Source: a virus. From it: a stretch of 52,549 nucleotides of DNA. Shown here piece after piece: positions 1,991 to 51,484 of this stretch (the stretch's first letter is position 1; each line of letters starts with the position of its first letter). The stretch covers positions 274 to 52,822 of IMG/VR virus record IMGVR_UViG_3300000575_000132; one strand, written 5' to 3'. Below the pieces are notes generated by a model, which was given only the letters and a program-made list of their open reading frames with translations, was not told where the DNA came from and made no database searches. Made by a program: the position numbers and the translations under genes.

Positions 1991-2762
1991 ATTTGTACAA
2001 GATGATATTTTAATTGATTCTGAACATAAAAATAAATGTTTGCCCTATTATGTTAAACAAGAACTAGAAGACTTTGAAAAAAGCAAAGATCTAGTTGATC
2101 CTAAATATCTAGAAAAACCTATCGAATACAAATTTAATTCACACGGTTATAGAACTAAAAATATTCAGAATCTTGATAAAGATTTTGTGCTTGTTTTTGG
2201 TTGTTCGCATACCGAAGGCGTTGGAAACTTTTATGAAGACATTTGGTGTTCTCAACTAATATCTAGATTTGATTTAGATTTTCTAAACCTTGCAAAAGCA
2301 GGTACTGGCCCTGATATTCAGTATCTAAATACCGTGCAGTATATTAAATCTGATTATCCTCGACCAAAAGCAGTTATATATCAGTGGCCTCAGTCGTTTA
2401 GAAAAAGTTTTGCATATTCTCAAGGCAAAAAAATCATATTAAAACACCACAATATAAACAACAAGACGGAAAAAAGAGACACAAACTGGTACATAAAAAG
2501 ATATTGTAATGAACTAGGAGAAATGATGATGAGCAATTATGCTTGTTATACTGCTGTAAATTTGTTATGGAAAAATTTAGGAGTTCCAGTTTTAAATTGG
2601 AGTTGGCAGGGTGATTTTGAAAATAATTATAAAGATCTGCATGTTATAAAAATTCAAGACACTGGTAAAGCAAGAGATTTAATACACGACGGTGCTGATA
2701 TACATCGTCAGGTTGCTGTTAAACTAGAAAAAATATTTGAAAATACTTTAAAGACGTGTTAA
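1977..2762 (+). CDS. SGNH/GDSL-like hydrolase
   Basis: 261 residues. VLVFGCSHTEGVG (Ser77) is block I, NLAKAGTGPD is a block II-like Gly/Asn segment, and HDGADIH near the C-terminus provides the Asp-x-His pair. This is the order seen in SGNH esterases and acyltransferases. The N-terminal 65 residues include HGYRTKN, also seen in altered form (NYGFRGKEF) in the second SGNH gene at 6545, so the two are paralogues. It overlaps the dehydrogenase gene, which implies coupled translation. A role in adding or removing an O-acyl group on the glycan made by neighbouring enzymes is inferred. Confidence 0.65.
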   Translation: MLELEFVQDDILIDSEHKNKCLPYYVKQELEDFEKSKDLVDPKYLEKPIEYKFNSHGYRTKNIQNLDKDFVLVFGCSHTEGVGNFYEDIWCSQLISRFDLDFLNLAKAGTGPDIQYLNTVQYIKSDYPRPKAVIYQWPQSFRKSFAYSQGKKIILKHHNINNKTEKRDTNWYIKRYCNELGEMMMSNYACYTAVNLLWKNLGVPVLNWSWQGDFENNYKDLHVIKIQDTGKARDLIHDGADIHRQVAVKLEKIFENTLKTC

Positions 2763-2770
2763 AATAAGTT

Positions 2771-3448
2771 ATGTATGATATAGTTTTTATTTCTTATAAT
2801 GAACCAAACGCAGACAAAAACTGGGAAAGTCTAAAACAGAGGTTTCCTAATGCAAAGCGAGTAGACGGTGTAAAAGGAATACACGAAGCTCACAAAAAAG
2901 CAGCAAAAAAATGTTTTACCAAAATGTTTTGGGTAGTAGATGCAGACGCAGATCTCGACGAGAGCTTTTTGTTTGATTACGAAGTTAACTCTTACGATTT
3001 AGAAACTGTGCATGTTTGTCTAACGGAAAATCCTGTGAATGGTTTAAGATACGGGTATGGAGGAGTAAAACTTCTTCCTCGAAAATCCACTATAAATCTA
3101 GATGATAGCCAAATTGACATGACTACGTCTATAAGCAACAATTTCAAAATTATAAACCAAGTTAGTAATGTTTCTAGATTTAACACAGATGCTTTTTCGG
3201 CTTGGAAATCAGGATTTAGAGAGTGTGCTAAACTAGCAAGTAAGACAATTGAAAGACAAATTAATCAAGAAACAAAACATAGACTAGACGTGTGGTGCAA
3301 TGTAGGTGCAAATACTCCATACGGTATAGACGCTATAAGAGGCGCAAAACAAGGAAAGCAGTTCGGACTGGAAAACAGAGATAATCCAGATGTGCTTTCT
3401 AAAATCAATGATTTTGATTGGCTAAAAGAAAGATTTTCAAAAGGGTGA
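2771..3448 (+). CDS. Phage glycosyltransferase-like protein with DxD motif
   Basis: 225 residues. It opens with YDIVFISYNEPNADKNWESL, has RVDGVKGIHEAHKKAA, and then FWVVDADADLD, which supplies a DxD-type metal and nucleotide-sugar site. I recognise this layout from conserved proteins of marine T4-like phages that look like a short GT-A glycosyltransferase. The acceptor is unknown. It lies between an SGNH gene and the nitroreductase fusion, with 8 and 3 base gaps, so it belongs to the same operon. Confidence 0.65.
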   Translation: MYDIVFISYNEPNADKNWESLKQRFPNAKRVDGVKGIHEAHKKAAKKCFTKMFWVVDADADLDESFLFDYEVNSYDLETVHVCLTENPVNGLRYGYGGVKLLPRKSTINLDDSQIDMTTSISNNFKIINQVSNVSRFNTDAFSAWKSGFRECAKLASKTIERQINQETKHRLDVWCNVGANTPYGIDAIRGAKQGKQFGLENRDNPDVLSKINDFDWLKERFSKG

Positions 3449-3451
3449 AAG

Positions 3452-4720
3452 ATGTATAAAAAATCTGCTGAAATATTGTTGCAAAACAAGGATGCATTAA
3501 GCAAAAAAGTAAGTAACTGGATAGTTAATAACTACCCCTATAGAACAAAGGAAAATGGAAAATGCGAAAGAGATGTATCCTTTATTATACACGCTGTTGC
3601 TAGTTGCTTATCAGAAAAAGACACTCGGGCTATAGATCATGTAATTAGAATATTCTTTAAAGGCGGAAAGTTCCAATTAAAATCGTTTGATGCTGAACTA
3701 GAAGCATATAACTATCTCCTTACAGAAATTGAGCCTCTACTTAGTCAAGGCGAACCCGGAAGCTTTGAATATGCTAAAGACACAGTTGAGTTATTGCAAG
3801 AAAGTTTCAAAAGAGGAACCGCTATTGAAAATGGCTTTAATTTTAGAAACGAAGAAAATCGCCAGGAAAGAGTAAAAAGGATGTTCTACGGTTGGGACGA
3901 GGAGATGGAAATTGTTCGCCAAATTCAAAAATGTCAACGCAATTGGGATCATTCGCAAGAAATTCATCCTGAAGTTGTAGACTATCTTCTATGGCATGCT
4001 GAAAACTCGCCCTCTAAACAATGGGAAGCCTATTACGATGTATATTGGACTGCAGATAGACAGGTTCTAGATGAACTATATGAATATACATGGGGGACTA
4101 CACACAACAGAAATCCTCCATCTACTTGGCGAAATTCGCAAATGAATGCGAATCTTTATATTTTATTTGTGGCAAAAGAACCAGAAACCAAACTAAATTG
4201 TCATGCGGACGGAACATTAAAATCAAATAAAGATCCTGCAAGGTGGGAGAATGCCTATGTAAGCATAGGAATAGCAATGGGGCTAGTAATGAGAGCTGCA
4301 GCAAAGTTAGGCCTTGCTACAGGATGCAACAAAAGCCACGGTGACATGAACGGAAATGACTTTTGGGAAAAAAGATTAGGAATTTTGGACGAAGTTCAAG
4401 CAGGAACAAAAAAAATTGCCTATGGTATAGGCATAGGTTTTCCACAGGAGGGCAGACCTAGATGGGAAACTGACCAAACAGAATTATGTATAGGTTCAGG
4501 AAATGGCAGTAATCTTACAACAAAGAACGAACAGGATCCTGATTGGCAAGAGAACCATCCCAGAACCGGAAAGCCTTTTAGAAAGGTTAAAATTATAGAT
4601 ATACATAGCTGTAACGAAGCAACAGATCCTTACGGAAATGTGCACAAAATACCAGACGAATCTACTATAAAAATTAACTCCATGCGAAAGAGGCAAATCA
4701 ACGTAATAGAAATTAAATGA
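3452..4720 (+). CDS. Fusion: virion-type helical domain plus nitroreductase-like domain
   Basis: 422 residues. The first ~125 carry KCERDVSFIIHAV and a helical remainder. This matches the KCxRDVxxIxxAV module I know from large structural proteins of marine T4-like phages. From about residue 150 a nitroreductase-like domain begins: IQKCQRNWD, then ENSPSKQWEAYY (FMN-site loop, canonical APSxxN), then NAYVSIGIAMGLVMRAAAKLGLATG (the flavin-fold helix). The NSPSKQ loop is shared with the two stand-alone paralogues at 8374 and 10334. Nitroreductase-fold enzymes use FMN for hydride transfer or dehydrogenation. GGGTG precedes the ATG, and the stop overlaps the next start (ATGA). Whether it is a virion enzyme is open. 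Confidence 0.7.
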   Translation: MYKKSAEILLQNKDALSKKVSNWIVNNYPYRTKENGKCERDVSFIIHAVASCLSEKDTRAIDHVIRIFFKGGKFQLKSFDAELEAYNYLLTEIEPLLSQGEPGSFEYAKDTVELLQESFKRGTAIENGFNFRNEENRQERVKRMFYGWDEEMEIVRQIQKCQRNWDHSQEIHPEVVDYLLWHAENSPSKQWEAYYDVYWTADRQVLDELYEYTWGTTHNRNPPSTWRNSQMNANLYILFVAKEPETKLNCHADGTLKSNKDPARWENAYVSIGIAMGLVMRAAAKLGLATGCNKSHGDMNGNDFWEKRLGILDEVQAGTKKIAYGIGIGFPQEGRPRWETDQTELCIGSGNGSNLTTKNEQDPDWQENHPRTGKPFRKVKIIDIHSCNEATDPYGNVHKIPDESTIKINSMRKRQINVIEIK

Positions 4721-42808: not shown

Positions 42809-42820
42809 ATTATTTATCGC
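42809..42820 (-). promoter_or_regulatory. T4-type late promoter candidate (CGATAAATAATG)
   Basis: GATAAATA on the minus strand at 42818-42811. The last codon and stop of the preceding gene (CGA TAA) are inside it. It lies 24 bases before the start at 42787. Confidence 0.5.
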
Positions 42821-43800
42821 TTAACAGGTTTACCGCCCATTAGGTTGTTGTCAACATCTAGAGCATTTTTAGCAGTGCCATCTGGGTTTGTTTTCTGTGG
42901 AGCCTTGGGCACACCTTTCTTGTCTCTCTTAATTTTGGCTCGTGCTGCAATCGGGTTTGCGACACTAGCAACAGAACCCGCTGAAGTTGCTCCTGCTGTT
43001 GCAGATTCTTGCATAACAGACGAAATAGTAATGCCTGGATCGTTCAAGAACTCGGCTTGAGAAGTTTTGTCTTTACTTCCACGTTCAACTTCGCTGTGAT
43101 AACTAATTGGGTACTCAACTAATTCGCCGCGGTATTGGTCATTTACATCTACAGTGTATCGCGAACTCTCGGCAATGCTAGGGGCTTGAGATATCATTTG
43201 GCGTGTTAGGGTAAAAATCGGTCTAGGCAACTTTTCTTCCTGTCTGATATTACGATCATATATCCTCTGCATGTTAAAAGTTTTTTTGTCGTCGTCGTCG
43301 TCACTGACCAAAAGATAAAGTCGCCCGTTTTCTTCGTATACTGCTCCAAATTCAGGAATAGTCTCAAGTGCTTCTAATAGTTTTACATTGAAAATTACAG
43401 AAGAACTTCGTTTCCGTTTTCTATCAGTGCGAGTGCCTAACTGTCTATCCTGGCGTTGTCTCTCCCGCTCTTCTTGGTCTTGTCTTGCACGTTCTACTTC
43501 TTCTGGCTTAATATCTGTGTCTATTTGCTTTTCTGCTTCTTTTTGTAAACGAGCCTTGCCCCATTGCTCTCCTGCAGGTGGAAAAATTTTCCTAACAGGT
43601 ACTCTATCTTTGTATATTGCAACAAATTTAGAAGGAAACCTAATTTCACCTTGTACTAAATTTTCTGGATCTGTCCATGCTGTTCCTACTGGGCCAGTTT
43701 CAGATTTGCCAACCATAATTTGGTAGCCGTTATAATCATATTTTGATAGAACCTCGGCTTCGACTAACTTGTTATTTTCGAATAGTTCTCTAAATCTCAT
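42814..43800 (-). CDS. Putative head-packaged protein with capsid-targeting-like leader
   Basis: 328 residues. The leader MRFRELFENNKLVEAE has Leu-Val-Glu|Ala at 12-15, the (L/I)-x-E|(A/G) pattern cut by T4 prohead protease gp21. A charged coil region (VERARQDQEERERQRQDRQL) and an acidic DDDDDKK stretch follow, then a Gly/Ala-rich end. ATTTTCGAATAGTT at 43774-43787 is identical to a stretch at 45721-45734 in another gene of this run, so leaders seem copied. Function after ejection is unknown. AAGGAAAG lies before the ATG. Confidence 0.55.
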   Translation of the reverse strand: MRFRELFENNKLVEAEVLSKYDYNGYQIMVGKSETGPVGTAWTDPENLVQGEIRFPSKFVAIYKDRVPVRKIFPPAGEQWGKARLQKEAEKQIDTDIKPEEVERARQDQEERERQRQDRQLGTRTDRKRKRSSSVIFNVKLLEALETIPEFGAVYEENGRLYLLVSDDDDDKKTFNMQRIYDRNIRQEEKLPRPIFTLTRQMISQAPSIAESSRYTVDVNDQYRGELVEYPISYHSEVERGSKDKTSQAEFLNDPGITISSVMQESATAGATSAGSVASVANPIAARAKIKRDKKGVPKAPQKTNPDGTAKNALDVDNNLMGGKPVKR

Positions 43801-43831
43801 TACTTTTCTTTCCTTAACTTGTGTTTTCTGT

Positions 43832-44269
43832 TTACCTTTTAATTAATGTGTACAGAACTTCGTTTTCATCCTCGTTGCTATCTTGTAATTTATATCCAAC
43901 TGATGAAGCAAATCGTTTTATCAACCTGTTATACAGTCGAACTCTAGAATCACCACCTATATCATTTTTTCCTGCTGAAAATTCCAGAGTCTCTGGATCG
44001 TTATCATGTATAAAATTTTCTATAATATTTAACACTGTTGAAAAAATAATAATTTCGTCTCCTCCGTCTGTAACATCAGTAACTTCATCAACAGTGAAAA
44101 CTACAGACCAGTCTCCTTGATTTCGGTCTGTCCAAAACTTTACTATCAATTCTCTATTTTTTATATTTGACTCATAATGTATATCATAATCTGTGTGAAA
44201 TATAATACGCCAATTGGAAGGACGGTCAAATAATTCCTTGATCTGAGTTTTAACTTCTCTAAATCTCAT
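43832..44269 (-). CDS. Conserved phage protein with leader MRFREVKTQIKELF
   Basis: 145 residues from the ATG at 44269 that overlaps the upstream TGA; an in-frame Met 11 codons earlier is inside the ParB-like gene. The body DWSVVFTVDEVTDVTDGGDE, then FSTVLNIIENFI and SRVRLYNRLIKRFASSVGYK is a domain I recognise from marine phages. The leader, MRFREVKTQIKEL, is like those of the neighbours, and its first 14 bases (44256-44269) are identical to 43787-43800. AGGAAA lies upstream. Confidence 0.6.
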   Translation of the reverse strand: MRFREVKTQIKELFDRPSNWRIIFHTDYDIHYESNIKNRELIVKFWTDRNQGDWSVVFTVDEVTDVTDGGDEIIIFSTVLNIIENFIHDNDPETLEFSAGKNDIGGDSRVRLYNRLIKRFASSVGYKLQDSNEDENEVLYTLIKR

Positions 44270-45747
44270 GATTTTTTCCTGCCTGATTTCATGTTCGCAC
44301 ACCAGTGGTACCCTTTTTGCTTTTCCCCACTGCTGTTCTTTGCTTTCTTACGTAAGCTGGTTACACTGCCCTTGCAACTAACACCGGCTTTTTTAAATCT
44401 ACCTGGGCGACTTTTGCCCTTCTTCTTACCGTCAGCAAAATTTTCGCCTAGGCGTGTTCGTTTTAAGATTTGCGTATTCCATATTTGATATGAAATATTA
44501 TCACCGTCTACCATACGCACGCCATCATAGCCCATGTTTTCAAGTTCGCCTGTGCTGTATTTGTCTATGTCGTCGTAGGAAGCCAACTTCGCTCGAGGAG
44601 ATATTTTAAACGCCATGTCCACACCTTTGCCCGATGTTACAGTGCTGTCCCAGTCGGTATTATCTACACCATTAAGCCAAAATGTTCCATCTGCGCTTTT
44701 ACTTAAATCTATAACCGCAAAATCTTCTGAACTTCTATGTATTCCGATTTCTCTTTCATTATCTTCCGCATATGTGTCTTTGGCAGTATGGGAAAAGTCT
44801 TGTATTAACTCTTGGATTGTAGCATCCTTGACTCTGATTACAGGAACTTCAGACACGCCTAATTTTACATATGCGTCATATCGATGATGGCCATTTACAA
44901 TAAAACCGTTTTTATCAACTACCAGAGGCTTATCGAAGCCGTCTTTTATGCTTTGTACAGTTTTATCTACCATGCCAGGAATTCTTTGATCCTGAGAAGT
45001 TTCTAGTGTAGATGGATCGACAGAATCTGATTCTAGATCATAATTGCCTTTTAGATCCTTCATGCTAATTTGAGGCATTTGATTTCTGGGAATATTTAGC
45101 TCATCTAGGATCGACTCTGCCAATCCTAGATTGTACAGCACATTAGTCGACTTTCCTTTAGTCTTTTTACTCAGTGTTGGCGGACGACCGTCTCGGTCCA
45201 CAGTGTTGCCAAACTTTGCAGCCTGCTTTTTAACTTCATCAGGACCGACATCTCGAGTTTGATTCTGCTTGGTTATTCTGCCAACGCCGCCTTCTTTTAT
45301 TTTCTTGCCCTTTTCTACAGGCGAGATATCAGTTGATTCATTTTCTACTAGATCCTCAATAACAAATACTTTTTGTATTGTATGACCATAATTCTCTTTT
45401 CTTTGTATAGTTGCACAAGAAAATTTTAAACTGTTTTCTTTTTGTCCTTGTTTTACATTCACAACAACGATTATGTCTGTTTTTAGATCTTTTAGAATTA
45501 TCTGCTGCCAAGGATCTAATTCTAAAAAATGTTTTTTACCATTAAATTTTGCATGATTTTTAAAAAATCTTAATAATTCTGTCATTTTGATTTTTGGTCG
45601 ATTTCTTTCGTCTAATGCTCTTTCGACAAAATGTTGTGTAAATTCCAGTTTATCAATATTATAGCGAGATAAAGCCCTTTCGGCAAAAATGCGCACAGTT
45701 TCTAAATCAGAGGGCGACATATTTTCGAATAGTTGTGAAAATCTCAT
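44266..45747 (-). CDS. ParB/Srx-like domain protein with head-targeting-like leader and Cys-rich basic tail
   Basis: 493 residues. Leader MRFSQLFEN, a first domain to about 140, and a central ParB-like part: DKPLVVDKNGFIVNGHHRYDAYVKLG, with the GHHR motif. A third domain from about 350 has DMAFKISPRAKL and NMGYDGVRMVDGDNISYQIWN, akin to ADP-ribosyltransferase-like ends in phage proteins (weak). The tail has KKAGVSCKGSVTSLRKKAKN and KGYHWCANMKSG, a basic Cys segment common in phage virion proteins. ParB-like folds often bind nucleotides or cut DNA. If packed in the head, it may enter the cell with the DNA. Confidence 0.6.
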   Translation of the reverse strand: MRFSQLFENMSPSDLETVRIFAERALSRYNIDKLEFTQHFVERALDERNRPKIKMTELLRFFKNHAKFNGKKHFLELDPWQQIILKDLKTDIIVVVNVKQGQKENSLKFSCATIQRKENYGHTIQKVFVIEDLVENESTDISPVEKGKKIKEGGVGRITKQNQTRDVGPDEVKKQAAKFGNTVDRDGRPPTLSKKTKGKSTNVLYNLGLAESILDELNIPRNQMPQISMKDLKGNYDLESDSVDPSTLETSQDQRIPGMVDKTVQSIKDGFDKPLVVDKNGFIVNGHHRYDAYVKLGVSEVPVIRVKDATIQELIQDFSHTAKDTYAEDNEREIGIHRSSEDFAVIDLSKSADGTFWLNGVDNTDWDSTVTSGKGVDMAFKISPRAKLASYDDIDKYSTGELENMGYDGVRMVDGDNISYQIWNTQILKRTRLGENFADGKKKGKSRPGRFKKAGVSCKGSVTSLRKKAKNSSGEKQKGYHWCANMKSGRKKS

Positions 45748-45974
45748 TTCTTACTACGTCCTCTAAAACCAGGTTGTTGGTTCATTGCACCGGTCATATA
45801 AGGCAAACTAAACCAAAGCTTAAACCATTCGTCTGTTCCTGGTTCTATGCCTTTCTCTCTTTCTATCTGTTTCTTTTCTGTGCCTGTTACAGAAATATTA
45901 GAACCCTCATAAGGTTCGTACCCTCGAAATTCATTAGTTATACCGGCGAGTTTTTGTAGTTCTTTTAAATCCAT
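45744..45974 (-). CDS. Small phage protein with LKELQKLAGIT start
   Basis: 76 residues. MDLKELQKLAGITNEFRGY is a typical start of small marine T4-like phage proteins; the end is GFRGRSKK. ATGA overlap with the ParB-like gene. The leader is related to, but not the same as, MRFxELF. No activity is known. Confidence 0.55.
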   Translation of the reverse strand: MDLKELQKLAGITNEFRGYEPYEGSNISVTGTEKKQIEREKGIEPGTDEWFKLWFSLPYMTGAMNQQPGFRGRSKK

Positions 45975-46307
45975 TTAATACTCGCCTTTGCGTATATTTT
46001 CGATTTCCTCTTCGGTAATTTTTGATATAATATTTTGCCTGTCTTCTGCAGTAAACAAATCGCTCATTTTTCTTGCTACTTGAAATTTTTTGCAATAGGT
46101 ATTCATTGCACTATCAACAATTCTGCCAAAGTGCTTTTCTCCGTCTGCACTTTTCTTTTTGTCATATTCTTGTTTCATATTGCATAATGCAGGATAGTAT
46201 TTGTTGCGGTAAAAAATAGGATCATTTTTCATAAACACAGTGATGTCTTCAACAACATCAAAAGGAAGTTTGTCCGTGTCCGTTGTTGTAAATTCATTAA
46301 TCTTCAT
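45975..46307 (-). CDS. Conserved phage protein with leader MKINEFTT
   Basis: 110 residues. DVVEDITVFMKNDPIFYRNK, then YYPALCNMKQ and DRQNIISKITEEEIENIRKG is a pattern I recognise from marine T4-like phages; function unknown. Leader MKINEFTTT is nearly the same as that of the gene at 46775, and the two share 16 identical bases (46282-46297 and 47145-47160). This points to a shared targeting leader. Confidence 0.6.
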   Translation of the reverse strand: MKINEFTTTDTDKLPFDVVEDITVFMKNDPIFYRNKYYPALCNMKQEYDKKKSADGEKHFGRIVDSAMNTYCKKFQVARKMSDLFTAEDRQNIISKITEEEIENIRKGEY

Positions 46308-46764
46308 CGGTTACCTCGTCGAAATTTGCACTTTTTTGCCAATCATATGAGACTTTGTCTTCGTTTATTGGGCCGCCTTTTGCCCATGTTCGGCATGTCC
46401 GTGCAGAGTGACATTTAAAATGATGCATCCAACAGTAGCCTAGTTCGCCGTCTTCGTCTGAAGTGGGTCCGGGTAAACAGTCTTTGATTCTTTCTGATAT
46501 GTCAAAAGCACTGCAATTAGCACACACAGATGATTTAGCGGCCTTTTCTGTAGTGCTCCAAAAATCTGCTATATCTTTCCAATAATCGCCTGGTTCGTCT
46601 ACATTTAAGGGACCGTACTGTATATGGTCCGCTTGTATGGCTTGATTTCTATTTTCAGTGTTAAGTTGTAGATCCTCAGTAGCAGGAGGGCAGGGCATCT
46701 TTGCTTCTGTTAGTTTAAGGGAAAATTCTCTATTTTGTATTGTTGCTATTTCGTTTATTCTCAT
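46297..46764 (-). CDS. Cys-rich conserved virion-type protein with cleavable-looking leader
   Basis: 155 residues. The conserved part of this family, as I know it from marine T4-like phages, begins at MPCPPATEDLQLNTENRNQA; here 22 residues, MRINEIATIQNREFSLKLTE|AK, precede it, and Leu18-Thr19-Glu20|Ala21 is a gp21-like cleavage site. The cysteines SVCANCSAF, KDCLPG, YCWMHHFKC and SARTCRTW suggest an Fe-S or zinc site. It probably enters the head and is cut there. Overlaps the next gene by 11 bases. Confidence 0.65.
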   Translation of the reverse strand: MRINEIATIQNREFSLKLTEAKMPCPPATEDLQLNTENRNQAIQADHIQYGPLNVDEPGDYWKDIADFWSTTEKAAKSSVCANCSAFDISERIKDCLPGPTSDEDGELGYCWMHHFKCHSARTCRTWAKGGPINEDKVSYDWQKSANFDEVTDED

Positions 46765-46774
46765 TTTTATACAC

Positions 46775-47170
46775 CTATAGGAATGATTTTTTTGGATCTA
46801 ATTTAAGTTTTTTTATGCTCCAAATAATTTGATCATACTTTCCATCATATATTAATTCACTATTGCCTAAATTGGGTTTGCTAGTGTTAATTTCTTTTTC
46901 AGCATCTTTATATGATTTTGGCTTGGCATGTTTAGGAGCATCCTTGGGCCAGCCTCCTCCTGCTACATTGTAATATGTTATTACTGAATAAACTTCAGGA
47001 TCTTCGACATCTAATTCCCAACCTTCAGGACCATGTGGATACGTTATATAAAGTGCTCCTTTCTGTATAAGATAAGGAACATTCAGTTTTTTTCTCTGTT
47101 TATTAAAGGTAAAGGTACTGATATTTTCTAAAAGTTCAATAACTGTTGTTGTAAATTCATCTATCCTCAT
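46775..47170 (-). CDS. Phage protein with leader MRIDEFTTT
   Basis: 131 residues. Leader MRIDEFTTTVIELLEN is similar to those of neighbours, with Leu13-Leu14-Glu15. The body YITYPHGPEGWELDVEDPEVYSV and NVAGGGWPKDAPKHAKPKSY is not a domain I know. The first bases match the gene at 45975, so the leader may have been exchanged. Confidence 0.5.
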   Translation of the reverse strand: MRIDEFTTTVIELLENISTFTFNKQRKKLNVPYLIQKGALYITYPHGPEGWELDVEDPEVYSVITYYNVAGGGWPKDAPKHAKPKSYKDAEKEINTSKPNLGNSELIYDGKYDQIIWSIKKLKLDPKKSFL

Positions 47171-47172
47171 TT

Positions 47173-47643
47173 TTATATTCCTAATTTTTCTGGAAATAAC
47201 ACACCGTCTTCTATTCTTTCGCCGCCATCATAGTATTTTAATTCCACAGGTAGATAATTCCACCCTAATTCCGCTGCAGCCATTATTCGGTGATTGCCTT
47301 CGTTTACCCAAGCTTCTCCGTTCCATGCAACTTGCACAAACGGAGCATACTCTCTGCCAAAATTTGTTAAAGGTAATTTTCCAGTGTCTTGCATTATTTT
47401 CTTAATATTTTCCAAATCCTTTTTTCTTACTTGTTTTTGCTCACCGCGATTACCGGGAAGTTTTTTCAACAGTTTTACTGGCAATTTTACATGATCTTCG
47501 AAATATGCTGTAATCGTTCCTGTAAAAGGTGCACCAAAATTATCTCTGCCTCGTTCTTTTGCTATACTAATTTTACGCTCCAGCCATTCCTCGTCAGGTA
47601 CATCTACTTTTAGATTTTCAGGTAAAATTTCCGAAATTTTCAT
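47173..47643 (-). CDS. ParB/Srx-like fold protein with leader MKISEI
   Basis: 156 residues. PFVQVAWNGEAWVNEGNHRIMAAAELGWNYLPVEL holds the GNHR-type motif that in ParB/sulfiredoxin-like folds binds nucleotide. Start MKISEILPENL is of the shared kind. A second ParB-like protein, with 44266, in this run. Substrate and partner unknown. Confidence 0.6.
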   Translation of the reverse strand: MKISEILPENLKVDVPDEEWLERKISIAKERGRDNFGAPFTGTITAYFEDHVKLPVKLLKKLPGNRGEQKQVRKKDLENIKKIMQDTGKLPLTNFGREYAPFVQVAWNGEAWVNEGNHRIMAAAELGWNYLPVELKYYDGGERIEDGVLFPEKLGI

Positions 47644-47647
47644 AATA

Positions 47648-48214
47648 TCACCAGGCTTTACAACTCCAATATCTGGCTTTTGTTTTGGGACCTGGATTAT
47701 CGCAGTTGTGTCTTGCTCTAAAGCTTCGGCGTTTATCAGGATTGCTTTTCTTTATCTTGGAATCAGGATCGCCAAAGTTTACTTTTTTTACATTGTCTGT
47801 CTTAGGATCCTTTACATATACGTGAAACTTTTTTGGACCATCAGAACTCCGTATAGGCTTGTTGAGTTTTACTTTTTTGCCCTGATATTCTGCTTCCCAT
47901 AGGTCATCTTCAACATATCCCAGTATTCCGAATTCTTCATAAAAATCGTCTAGGTTTTCTATTGTTATTTCGTCAGCTTCTTCCAGATCGTCTGCAGAAA
48001 TTTCGATATCAAAGTCATTATACCCTTCTGCAAAAAAGTAGTTTGCAATTTTTTCTGCAATCTTCTGAGACTGTTCTTCATTTGGACTTTTAGGAAGATT
48101 GATTTCGAATACGGTATTGCCTTGTGAAGTCTCATACAAATTGTACTCTGTGAAAGATTCGCTCAAAGCAACTGTTTCCTGTTTGTCCATTATAACTCGT
48201 GCAAAGTGTTCCAT
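47648..48214 (-). CDS. Conserved phage protein with basic Cys-containing C-terminal domain
   Basis: 188 residues. The C-terminal part KKFHVYVKDPKTDNVKKVNFGDP then RRSFRARHNCDNPGPKTKARYWSCKAW is a domain I know from T4-like phage virion-type proteins. The middle is acidic (ISADDLEEADEITIENLDDF). Near the start ALSE|S (17-20) looks like a possible prohead protease site, though the leader differs from the others. Function unknown. Confidence 0.6.
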   Translation of the reverse strand: MEHFARVIMDKQETVALSESFTEYNLYETSQGNTVFEINLPKSPNEEQSQKIAEKIANYFFAEGYNDFDIEISADDLEEADEITIENLDDFYEEFGILGYVEDDLWEAEYQGKKVKLNKPIRSSDGPKKFHVYVKDPKTDNVKKVNFGDPDSKIKKSNPDKRRSFRARHNCDNPGPKTKARYWSCKAW

Positions 48215-48668: not shown

Positions 48669-49244
48669 TTATGCCTCACAAACCAAACGATCTACTCTTC
48701 TAATATTTTCTGATATCATAAGGTTAACAAGCGATAATACCTTGTCGTTCCTGATATAGAAATACAGTCCTCCGGTCATCCATCCGCGATTTATTGCTCT
48801 ATACGCAGCATCTCCGATTTTGATTTTGTCGGGGTTTGCTTTGACCCATTTAGCAAAATTGCTACTTATGTTGCGGTCGTTCATCGTGACTTTAATGGGA
48901 TAAGCAGGCTTTTCCTTCACAATAATTGTATTTGCGTTTTTCAGCAGATGCTCGCGTTCAGGACTGGGTTGCCAGATTTCTTGGATTTCTTTAGCAAATC
49001 TCTCACTCATCTCTGCTAAAAAGTCTGTGTCATTTGTAAAGACAGCAACAAGACTACCTTCGCTTCGAGTTTTAATGTCTTTGTTGTGTATTAAATTCAG
49101 CAAGTCTTCTTCGTCTTTGTTAGTAGGCTCAGGGAAGTTTCTACGCATACTGGTTATTGTAAACAGATACACACAAGGGACACGTATCACTATCTTGTAC
49201 AAATAGCGATTATACCAAAGTTTTGTGGTCTCAAGCTTTTTCAT
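48669..49244 (-). CDS. Conserved phage protein of unknown function
   Basis: 191 residues. TNKDEEDLLNLIHNKDIKTRSEGSLVAVFTND, ISSNFAKWVKANPDKIKIGDA and YFYIRNDKVLSLVNLMISENIRRVDRL are helix-strand mixtures without a motif I can name. A Met 33 codons in (MRRNFPEP) is an alternative start that would drop a hydrophobic leader (YKIVIRVPCVYLFTIT). Its start overlaps the ClpA stop by one base. Confidence 0.5.
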   Translation of the reverse strand: MKKLETTKLWYNRYLYKIVIRVPCVYLFTITSMRRNFPEPTNKDEEDLLNLIHNKDIKTRSEGSLVAVFTNDTDFLAEMSERFAKEIQEIWQPSPEREHLLKNANTIIVKEKPAYPIKVTMNDRNISSNFAKWVKANPDKIKIGDAAYRAINRGWMTGGLYFYIRNDKVLSLVNLMISENIRRVDRLVCEA

Positions 49245-51484
49245 TACTCTGCCTCAATAGTCTCGGTGTTAAGAACAATTTCGTCGTGCTTAAAGTCGAT
49301 TACAACATTTCCGCCTTCTCGCAGTTCACCAAACAGCATTTTGCGTGACAACGGAGATTTGATTTCTCTATCAATCACACGCTGCAGCGGCCGAGCTCCC
49401 ATCTTGGGATCAAAGCCTACATCCACAAGGTGGTCCAGTGCATCGTTTGTAATATCAATATCAATTGATTTATCACTTACCATGCCTTTCAGTTCAAGCA
49501 GGAACTTGCCAACGATTTTGATCATGGTTTCCTTGCTTAGTTTTGCAAATGTTACTACGGCATCCAAGCGATTACGAAACTCTGGAGCAAAGAATTCCTT
49601 TAACGCAGTGTCATCGTATTCTTTTTCCTGAAAATCAGTAAAACCAATTGTGTTTTTTTCTGCGTCCCTTGCTCCCAGGTTAGTGGTAAGAATCACAATA
49701 GAATTTTTTGCATCTGCTTCTTTTCCGTTAGAGCCTGTGATCTTACCGTTGTCCATCATCTGCAGCAAAATTTGAGACACATCAGGGTGTGCCTTTTCGA
49801 TTTCGTCCAACAGCAGGACACAGCCCGGATTTTCCTGTAGCTTTGTAATCAAGACACCGGCATTGTCTTCATAGCCAACATAACCAGGAGGAGATCCGAT
49901 TAATTTTGCAACAGAGTGCTTTTCCTGGTATTCACTCATGTCAAACCTCACAAGCTCTGTGCCCATCTGTTCTGCGAGCTGTCTAGCAGTTTCGGTCTTG
50001 CCACAGCCTGTAGGACCCATAAACACAAACGACCCTACTGGTTTGTTTTCTTCTTTAAGTCCTGCCTGAGCAACCAGAATCTTGTCTACTACTTTTTCGA
50101 TTGCTTCGTCTTGTCCATAGATGGATTTCTTGAGATTTGACTCCAGTTCTGCCAGCCTGTCGTTTTCTTTTTCTGCAATAGTTTCTTCAGGAAGCTTCAC
50201 GGTTTTAGCCAGTTCAAATTGAATGTTTTCTTCGTCGACTGATCTTTCTTCCTCTGGCACGTCTTTGATTTTAAATCTGGAACAGGCCTGGTCAATCAGA
50301 TCAATTGCTTTGTCAGGCAGTTTCTTATCAGCCTGGTATTTCACACTAAGCTTCACTGCAGACTGAATTGCAGCGTCCAAAATTTCGGCTCCGTGATATT
50401 CTTCATAGTATTTTCTCAAACCTTTTAGAATGTCTACAGCTACTTCCTGCGTTGGCTCGTCCACAGTGATTCTCTGGAACCGCCGCATAAGAGCCCTATC
50501 TGCTTCAAAGTGCTTGCGATACTCGTCCCAGGTAGTAGATGCAACAACTTTAAGATTTCCCTTGCTAAGAGCTGGCTTAAGAAGATTTGCTAGATCAACT
50601 GAATTTTCTCTAGACCCTGATCCGGCACCACTAATCATGTGAGCTTCGTCAATAAACATGATGGTTTTGCCTTTCTTTTCTAAACCTTCAATAATCAGTT
50701 TGAATCTTTCTTCAAAATCGCCTCGATACTTAGACCCTGCAAGCATGGAACCAATATCTAGATTGTACACTTCATAGTCTAGCAGGAATAACGGAACATT
50801 GCCGTTCACGATATTCCAGGCAAGTCCTTCGGCAATTGCAGTTTTTCCCACGCCTGGATCGCCCACAAGAATGGCATTGTTTTTTGTTCGACGTCCAAGT
50901 GCAAGTGCAATTTGCTCTAGCTCTTCTGCTCTGCCAATAACAGGATCAATCTTGCTTTTTTCTACTGCCTGATTTAGATTATCGGTAAATTTATGCAGAG
51001 CTTTTTGTGCACTGTTACTGATCTCTTCTTTTTCAATCTTTTCTTCTGTTTCTGAGGACGCAAAGTCAGCAAATTCTTCTTTTGCTACTCCGGATTCTTC
51101 AAGATAGTAATAGGCATAGCTTTTCTTTTCTGACAGCATGCTTAGAAGAACGTCTTCTAATTCAATATTGGGCCTGCCATTGAACAAAACCTGTGTAAAA
51201 GCACGATTAAGTGTTCGTTCTACTGTTGCAGTCTTTTTGGGCTTATATTTGTCAACACCTTCTGCTACTTTTAAATCTTCACACTTGTCTTTGAGATAGT
51301 GGTTTAGCGATGACTTTAGATAATCTACATTTGCTCCATAGTCTTTGAGCATTTTGTAAAAGTCGTCACACTCCAGCATAGAAAACAGAAAATGCTCTAG
51401 TGTAAGATACTCATGCCTGAGTGTTTTTGCATTTTTGATACTTGATTCAAATACCCTAGTAAGCTCTTCGCTTGGATCAACCAT
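49244..51484 (-). CDS. clpA: ClpA-type AAA+ unfoldase
   Basis: 746 residues (E. coli ClpA 758). An N domain of about 145, then D1 with Walker A GDPGVGKT (208-215) and Walker B IMFIDEAH (275-282), then D2 with GPTGCGKT (490-497) and VLLLDEIEKAH (556-566). IGF at 613-615 (KNTIGFTDF) stands where ClpA/ClpX have their ClpP-binding IGL/IGF loop. Thus it may form a degradation machine with the host ClpP. No clpP or clpS is in the window. The N domain (LTLEHFLFSMLE, LEDVLLSML) is kept. Deformylase start and ClpA overlap by 8 bases. Confidence 0.9.
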   Translation of the reverse strand: MVDPSEELTRVFESSIKNAKTLRHEYLTLEHFLFSMLECDDFYKMLKDYGANVDYLKSSLNHYLKDKCEDLKVAEGVDKYKPKKTATVERTLNRAFTQVLFNGRPNIELEDVLLSMLSEKKSYAYYYLEESGVAKEEFADFASSETEEKIEKEEISNSAQKALHKFTDNLNQAVEKSKIDPVIGRAEELEQIALALGRRTKNNAILVGDPGVGKTAIAEGLAWNIVNGNVPLFLLDYEVYNLDIGSMLAGSKYRGDFEERFKLIIEGLEKKGKTIMFIDEAHMISGAGSGSRENSVDLANLLKPALSKGNLKVVASTTWDEYRKHFEADRALMRRFQRITVDEPTQEVAVDILKGLRKYYEEYHGAEILDAAIQSAVKLSVKYQADKKLPDKAIDLIDQACSRFKIKDVPEEERSVDEENIQFELAKTVKLPEETIAEKENDRLAELESNLKKSIYGQDEAIEKVVDKILVAQAGLKEENKPVGSFVFMGPTGCGKTETARQLAEQMGTELVRFDMSEYQEKHSVAKLIGSPPGYVGYEDNAGVLITKLQENPGCVLLLDEIEKAHPDVSQILLQMMDNGKITGSNGKEADAKNSIVILTTNLGARDAEKNTIGFTDFQEKEYDDTALKEFFAPEFRNRLDAVVTFAKLSKETMIKIVGKFLLELKGMVSDKSIDIDITNDALDHLVDVGFDPKMGARPLQRVIDREIKSPLSRKMLFGELREGGNVVIDFKHDEIVLNTETIEAE

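Follow-up and report, generated by a model that had tools for sequence, protein, structure and literature searches.

A T4-like leader shared by a run of marine jumbo-phage genes: a probable system for capsid targeting and prohead cleavage

Why do neighbouring phage genes with unrelated products begin with nearly the same residues? The question is raised by a locus in a DNA stretch of 52 549 nucleotides (the window), which derives from a 52.8-kb IMG/VR fragment of a marine jumbo myovirus, a bacterial virus. A sequence-only reading had taken these starts for T4-type capsid-targeting leaders, and this interpretation was upheld by their T4-like form, the unrelated cargo, the hydrophobic-x-E sites, a site shared with the capsid protein, enrichment among PA5oct virion proteins and a gp21-type protease in relatives. 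We consider it probable (about 0.83) that the run represents a T4-type capsid-targeting and prohead-cleavage system which loads modular internal head proteins.

The leader run and its genes

The start M-[KR]-[IF]-x-[EQ]-[ILVF] was found in seven of eight consecutive minus-strand genes (42814-47643). These seven are the only matches among the 76 called genes of the window. Shuffled N-termini gave 0.145 motif genes on average (maximum of three in 2000 shuffles), and the Poisson probability is 2e-10. The seven shared starts noticed earlier (MRFRELFEN to MKISEIL) all belong to real ATG-initiated open reading frames. The features of the locus are as follows (an arrow marks a possible or predicted cut).

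42814..43800, minus: leader protein 1 (328 aa, MRFRELFENNKLVEAEV...), in which the leader precedes 250 residues of uncharacterized cargo and a C-terminal module B
43759..43800, minus: first 14 residues of protein 1 (leader), which may be cut at LFE↓N and LVE↓A
42817..43005, minus: module B of protein 1 (residues 266-328, SATAGATSAGSVASVANP...), preceded by VMQE; its start is that of the mature major capsid protein (predicted) of relatives
43832..44269, minus: leader protein 2 (145 aa, MRFREVKTQ...), resembling phrog_16075/6387 and weakly DUF6934
44266..45747, minus: leader protein 3 (493 aa, MRFSQLFEN...), made up of an N-terminal extension, module A, a ParB-like domain, a further domain and module C
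45724..45747, minus: leader of protein 3 (residues 1-8), LFE↓N
45112..45291, minus: module A of protein 3 (residues 153-212, GGVGRITKQNQTRDVG...), preceded by IKE
44800..45045, minus: ParB/sulfiredoxin-like domain of protein 3 (residues 235-316); phrog_620, E=2.3e-12; AlphaFold2 model against PDB 5k5d, E=6.5e-6, a match that rests on a partly confident model
44269..44442, minus: module C of protein 3 (residues 436-493, NFADGKKKGKSRPGR...), a basic module with LGE ahead of it
45744..45974, minus: 76-aa protein (MDLKELQKLAGI...), the single gene of the run that does not match the strict leader motif; 36 hits show its conservation in relatives
45975..46307, minus: leader protein 4 (110 aa, MKINEFTTT...); family core MRNDPxFYRK
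46297..46764, minus: leader protein 5 (155 aa, rich in Cys); its first 20 residues form the leader, with LTE↓A directly ahead of the conserved CPPAT domain
46775..47170, minus: leader protein 6 (131 aa, MRIDEFTTTVIELLEN...), an orphan; possible LLE↓N
47173..47643, minus: leader protein 7 (156 aa, MKISEILPE↓NLKVDVP...), weakly ParB-like
47648..48214, minus: neighbour without leader (188 aa); basic C-terminal Cys module RRSFRARHNCDNPGP..ARYWSC
49244..51484, minus: ClpA-like ATPase, fixed upstream neighbour of the leader cluster in relatives

Two clear (L/I)-x-E↓A sites had been reported from the letters alone. Both are present, LVE↓A at residues 12-15 of protein 1 and LTE↓A at residues 18-21 of protein 5, and the count was too low: LFE↓N occurs at residues 6-9 of proteins 1 and 3 and LPE↓N at residues 7-10 of protein 7, and additional E sites lie in the interior of two leader reading frames. 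In some leader proteins the site is not conserved. No clear cut site was found in protein 2, and the family of protein 4 retains the leader in all relatives, yet has no conserved E site.

In the family of protein 5 (at least 595 relatives) the conserved part begins directly past LTE↓A, as had been claimed, and the junction was confirmed in relatives. In some of these the leader is T4-like but different (MKLILENFRKFITE↓A), and fused copies retain IIE↓A ahead of the domain. The AlphaFold2 model of the 155-aa protein was poor (pLDDT 50). The Cys-rich domain itself (CxxC...GYCWMHHFKCHS..C) is extremely widespread among marine viral contigs. In two relatives the domain of protein 7 lies behind LKE↓N and VAE↓G as part of large proteins. 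By eye, residues 317-434 of protein 3 had looked ADP-ribosyltransferase-like, a suspicion that found no support on checking. The Cys module of the leaderless neighbour is also C-terminal in leader proteins of relatives (L010 15801 and L015 16271); this basic module recurs in numerous marine phage proteins, whether they carry a leader or not.

The leader and the movable modules in relatives

The DNA polymerase of the window is nearest to those of jumbo myoviruses (Sinorhizobium phage Phosso, 50%; Vibrio phage 2.275.O; Agrobacterium phage Atu_ph07; the 121Q/RaK2 group), and the virus is distant kin of the Phosso/Atu_ph07/RaK2/PA5oct group. Relatives of the clpA-like gene, downstream of which the leader cluster lies, were found on 80 marine contigs with 66-83% identity. 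At 42 loci the leader was present in 105 of 412 distinct genes no more than 8.5 kb downstream of clpA, compared with two of 613 elsewhere. The relatives supplied 123 distinct leader starts. The motif occurred at 7.2% of their gene starts and at 0.17% of internal positions; among single-member families chance matches are expected for about 0.16% of genes. A near-complete 357-kb relative has nine leader genes among 492 (0.8 expected), in four places. Leader genes also lie far from clpA, at 120, 327 and 349-353 kb in G016 and at 83, 152-158 and 260 kb in PA5oct. The nearest isolates, Atu_ph07 and Phosso, have no leader run beside clpA.

The cargo behind these leaders comprises about 20 families that are unrelated beyond the leader, including cytidylyltransferase-like, 5'-deoxynucleotidase, ParB-like and DUF6267 proteins; the closest relative (L121) carries an additional deoxynucleotidase. 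Leader codons differ synonymously among relatives while the residues are kept, which indicates that selection acts on the peptide and led us to reject a translation-level or RNA-level cause of the shared start. As a separate observation, a protein resembling the T7 gp0.7-type protein kinase (phrog_15752, E 5e-10; L024 8098-8673, also in L025-L027) has an M-K-I-T-E-L start; it is encoded upstream of clpA and has no E site, and so may belong to the small number of matches that arise by chance.

A hydrophobic-x-E site ending at residues 8-16 was present in 85 of 123 leader proteins and in 372 of 1656 others (P 8e-26). Each of the three modules (A, B and C) was found both directly behind leaders and within larger proteins. 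An E lies one to three residues ahead of module A (GRIVKGVNTT-like) in 24/24 contexts, immediately ahead of module B (SATAGATSAG) in 8/8 and at P1 of module C in 21/21, where the upstream sequence is unrelated. At the internal B and C junctions P3 was hydrophobic in 18 of 24 cases against an expected 30% (P 7e-6), with no enrichment at the adjacent positions P2, P4 and P5. In L121 module A directly follows the leader (MRFRELQE↓GGVGRIT), and module B stands alone behind one in a 71-aa protein (MRFREILE↓AATAGATSAG). In the window, new sequence separates the leader from the module, but KIKE↓GGVGRIT and VMQE↓SATAGATSAG are retained. The junction E could partly be inherited as a component of each module. 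A tblastn search of phage records with module B, a low-complexity query, gave no matches. An L121 protein (2212-3945) has an extra module, EKWSKKYKGSINCNNPKGFSQKAHCAGKKKNEN, compared with the window protein, with an E on either side.

The capsid protein, the protease and the virion

In relatives the genes for gp21 (an S77 protease, E 4e-27), gp22 and gp23 are arranged as in T4, and the related records G011 and G016 contain a gp21-type protease together with a leader cluster. Searches for gp21 and gp23 in the 52.8-kb fragment and in G001, the closest long record, found neither; both records are partial. A check proposed with the original reading, to look for cut sites of the protease in head proteins, gave a positive result: the context of module B matches the capsid protein of relatives. 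That protein begins, past the predicted cut, with SATAGATSAGNVAT. Its site in G011, with the cut placed as in T4, reads YLAE↓SATAGATSAG, compared with VMQE↓SATAGATSAG at module B in the window; other jumbo-phage capsid starts are ME↓TATAGATSAG, RE↓SATAGATSAG and VE↓NASAGATQAG. The match between module B and the major capsid protein of relatives extends over the E site and about 14 residues. This identity exceeds the protease motif, and module B may be a docking element.

Virion data were available for cultured relatives. The PA5oct record tags virion proteins identified by ESI-MS/MS, and the leader motif was fixed before counting. The leader was present in six of 90 tagged proteins and in two of the 390 called genes that lack the tag (odds ratio 14, P 0.0008). 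The result comes from one phage, and its leader proteins and those of the window are mostly not orthologs. The PA5oct capsid protein is 67% identical to that of G011, and a tagged 498-aa protein contains a module B-like KVEE↓TASAGASSAG. In Atu_ph07 the clpA gene sits in one of three clusters of virion proteins identified by MS (PMC6102473); its neighbours have no leader.

Function of the leader and alternative explanations

In T4 the internal proteins are diverse cargo joined by the capsid-targeting sequence only (PMC3012670), and gp21 removes short N-terminal peptides (PMC9958956). The starts in the T4 record are MAKINELLRE↓S (gp24), MKTFKEFTSTTTPVSTITE↓A (ipI) and MKTYQEFIAE↓A (ipII/ipIII). 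As in T4 IPI-IPIII, Alt and gp24, a short N-terminal leader is carried here by unrelated proteins, hydrophobic-x-E stands ahead of A/S/N/D/G and, in relatives, the protease gene lies beside gp22 and gp23. As judged from sequence, the window has the testable defining features of T4-type targeting, the protease gene excepted, as the record is a fragment. Unlike T4, it has more leader genes per run, with the consensus M[KR][IL]x[ED][IL]xxE, and the cargo of its group is enzyme-like and modular, with sites also within proteins and a module that copies the capsid N-arm. The jumbo phages SPN3US and phiKZ likewise have protease-processed head proteins (ejection proteins; processing is predicted here), whereas SPN3US propeptides mostly exceed 100 residues with the motif AxE (PMC5694885, PMC10052503) and the present leaders are short with an LxE-like motif. 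Polyvalent proteins (Iyer, Burroughs, Aravind) are also multidomain, with ParB-like and nucleotide-acting domains, and are believed to accompany DNA into the host; unlike these, the window proteins are short and tagged and have protease-type junctions, and the likeness is one of domain resemblance only. The leader-bearing virion proteins of PA5oct have the same leader form and the same module B start; they differ in most of their cargo, and the PA5oct record does not call them leaders. A search confined to the open literature found no description of T4-like leaders for phages of this group.

The N-terminal leader would direct the individual proteins to the scaffold core of the prohead, where a gp21-type protease would then cut past hydrophobic-x-E and remove the leader, and would probably also part some proteins at the internal junctions of modules A, B and C. 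The freed cargo, consisting of small basic modules and enzyme-like domains (ParB-like; in relatives cytidylyltransferase-like and deoxynucleotidase), would remain in the head with the DNA, and part of it, at least, would probably enter the host. The start tag is closely T4-like, so the tagged proteins are probably packed in the head with DNA; their delivery into the host is the less certain step. A further proposal, which we advance tentatively and at somewhat less than even odds, is that some of these are self-dissecting head polyproteins, in which interchangeable modules separated by protease sites share one leader and are cut apart in the prohead, module B docking on the inner capsid by imitating the mature capsid N-arm. 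The copy of this arm in small internal proteins suggests a way in which the head may retain them.

The leader might target the head core while the cargo consists of head-building or DNA-condensing parts and not of host-acting injected proteins. Several modules are indeed small and strongly basic (module C and the RRSFRARHNC module), module B repeats the capsid N-arm and the PA5oct tags show virion presence only; against this, the enzyme-like cargo (the ParB/sulfiredoxin fold, and the deoxynucleotidase and cytidylyltransferase-like proteins of relatives) fits proteins that act on nucleotides or host factors, and T4 injects IPI and Alt (PMC3012670, PMC9503650). We regard this alternative as unlikely, although it deserves serious weight. 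An uncleaved virion-targeting tag, with the E residues belonging to an amphipathic motif, would accommodate the protein 4 family described above; it appears improbable, since the internal junctions keep their sites despite unrelated upstream sequence and the sites coincide with the cut context of the capsid protein.

Two readings without any capsid role were also weighed. The adjacency and mostly small size of the genes would suit a shared start left as a relic of gene duplication, or serving as a translation-initiation signal, with no targeting function. The cargo, however, is unrelated, the leader residues are kept while the codons vary and leader genes are over-represented among PA5oct virion proteins, which makes this very improbable. 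Scarcely any probability is given to a recognition tag for the adjoining phage ClpA: the cluster does lie downstream of clpA in relatives, but leaders also occur remote from it (G016, PA5oct) and the similar T4 leaders are capsid-targeting.

Read as a capsid-targeting signal, the leader would provide a sequence handle for predicting head-borne proteins among the uncharacterized proteins of marine T4-like and jumbo phages, and it points to a large, rapidly changing group of candidate proteins for host takeover or anti-defence. It also opens the question to N-terminal proteomics.

Elsewhere in the window, a long block (80-20391) contains aminotransferase-, radical-SAM-, carbamoyltransferase-, dioxygenase-, nitroreductase-, methyltransferase- and desaturase-like genes, as assigned by eye from the translations only. 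It looks like a phage-borne small-molecule or surface-sugar pathway.
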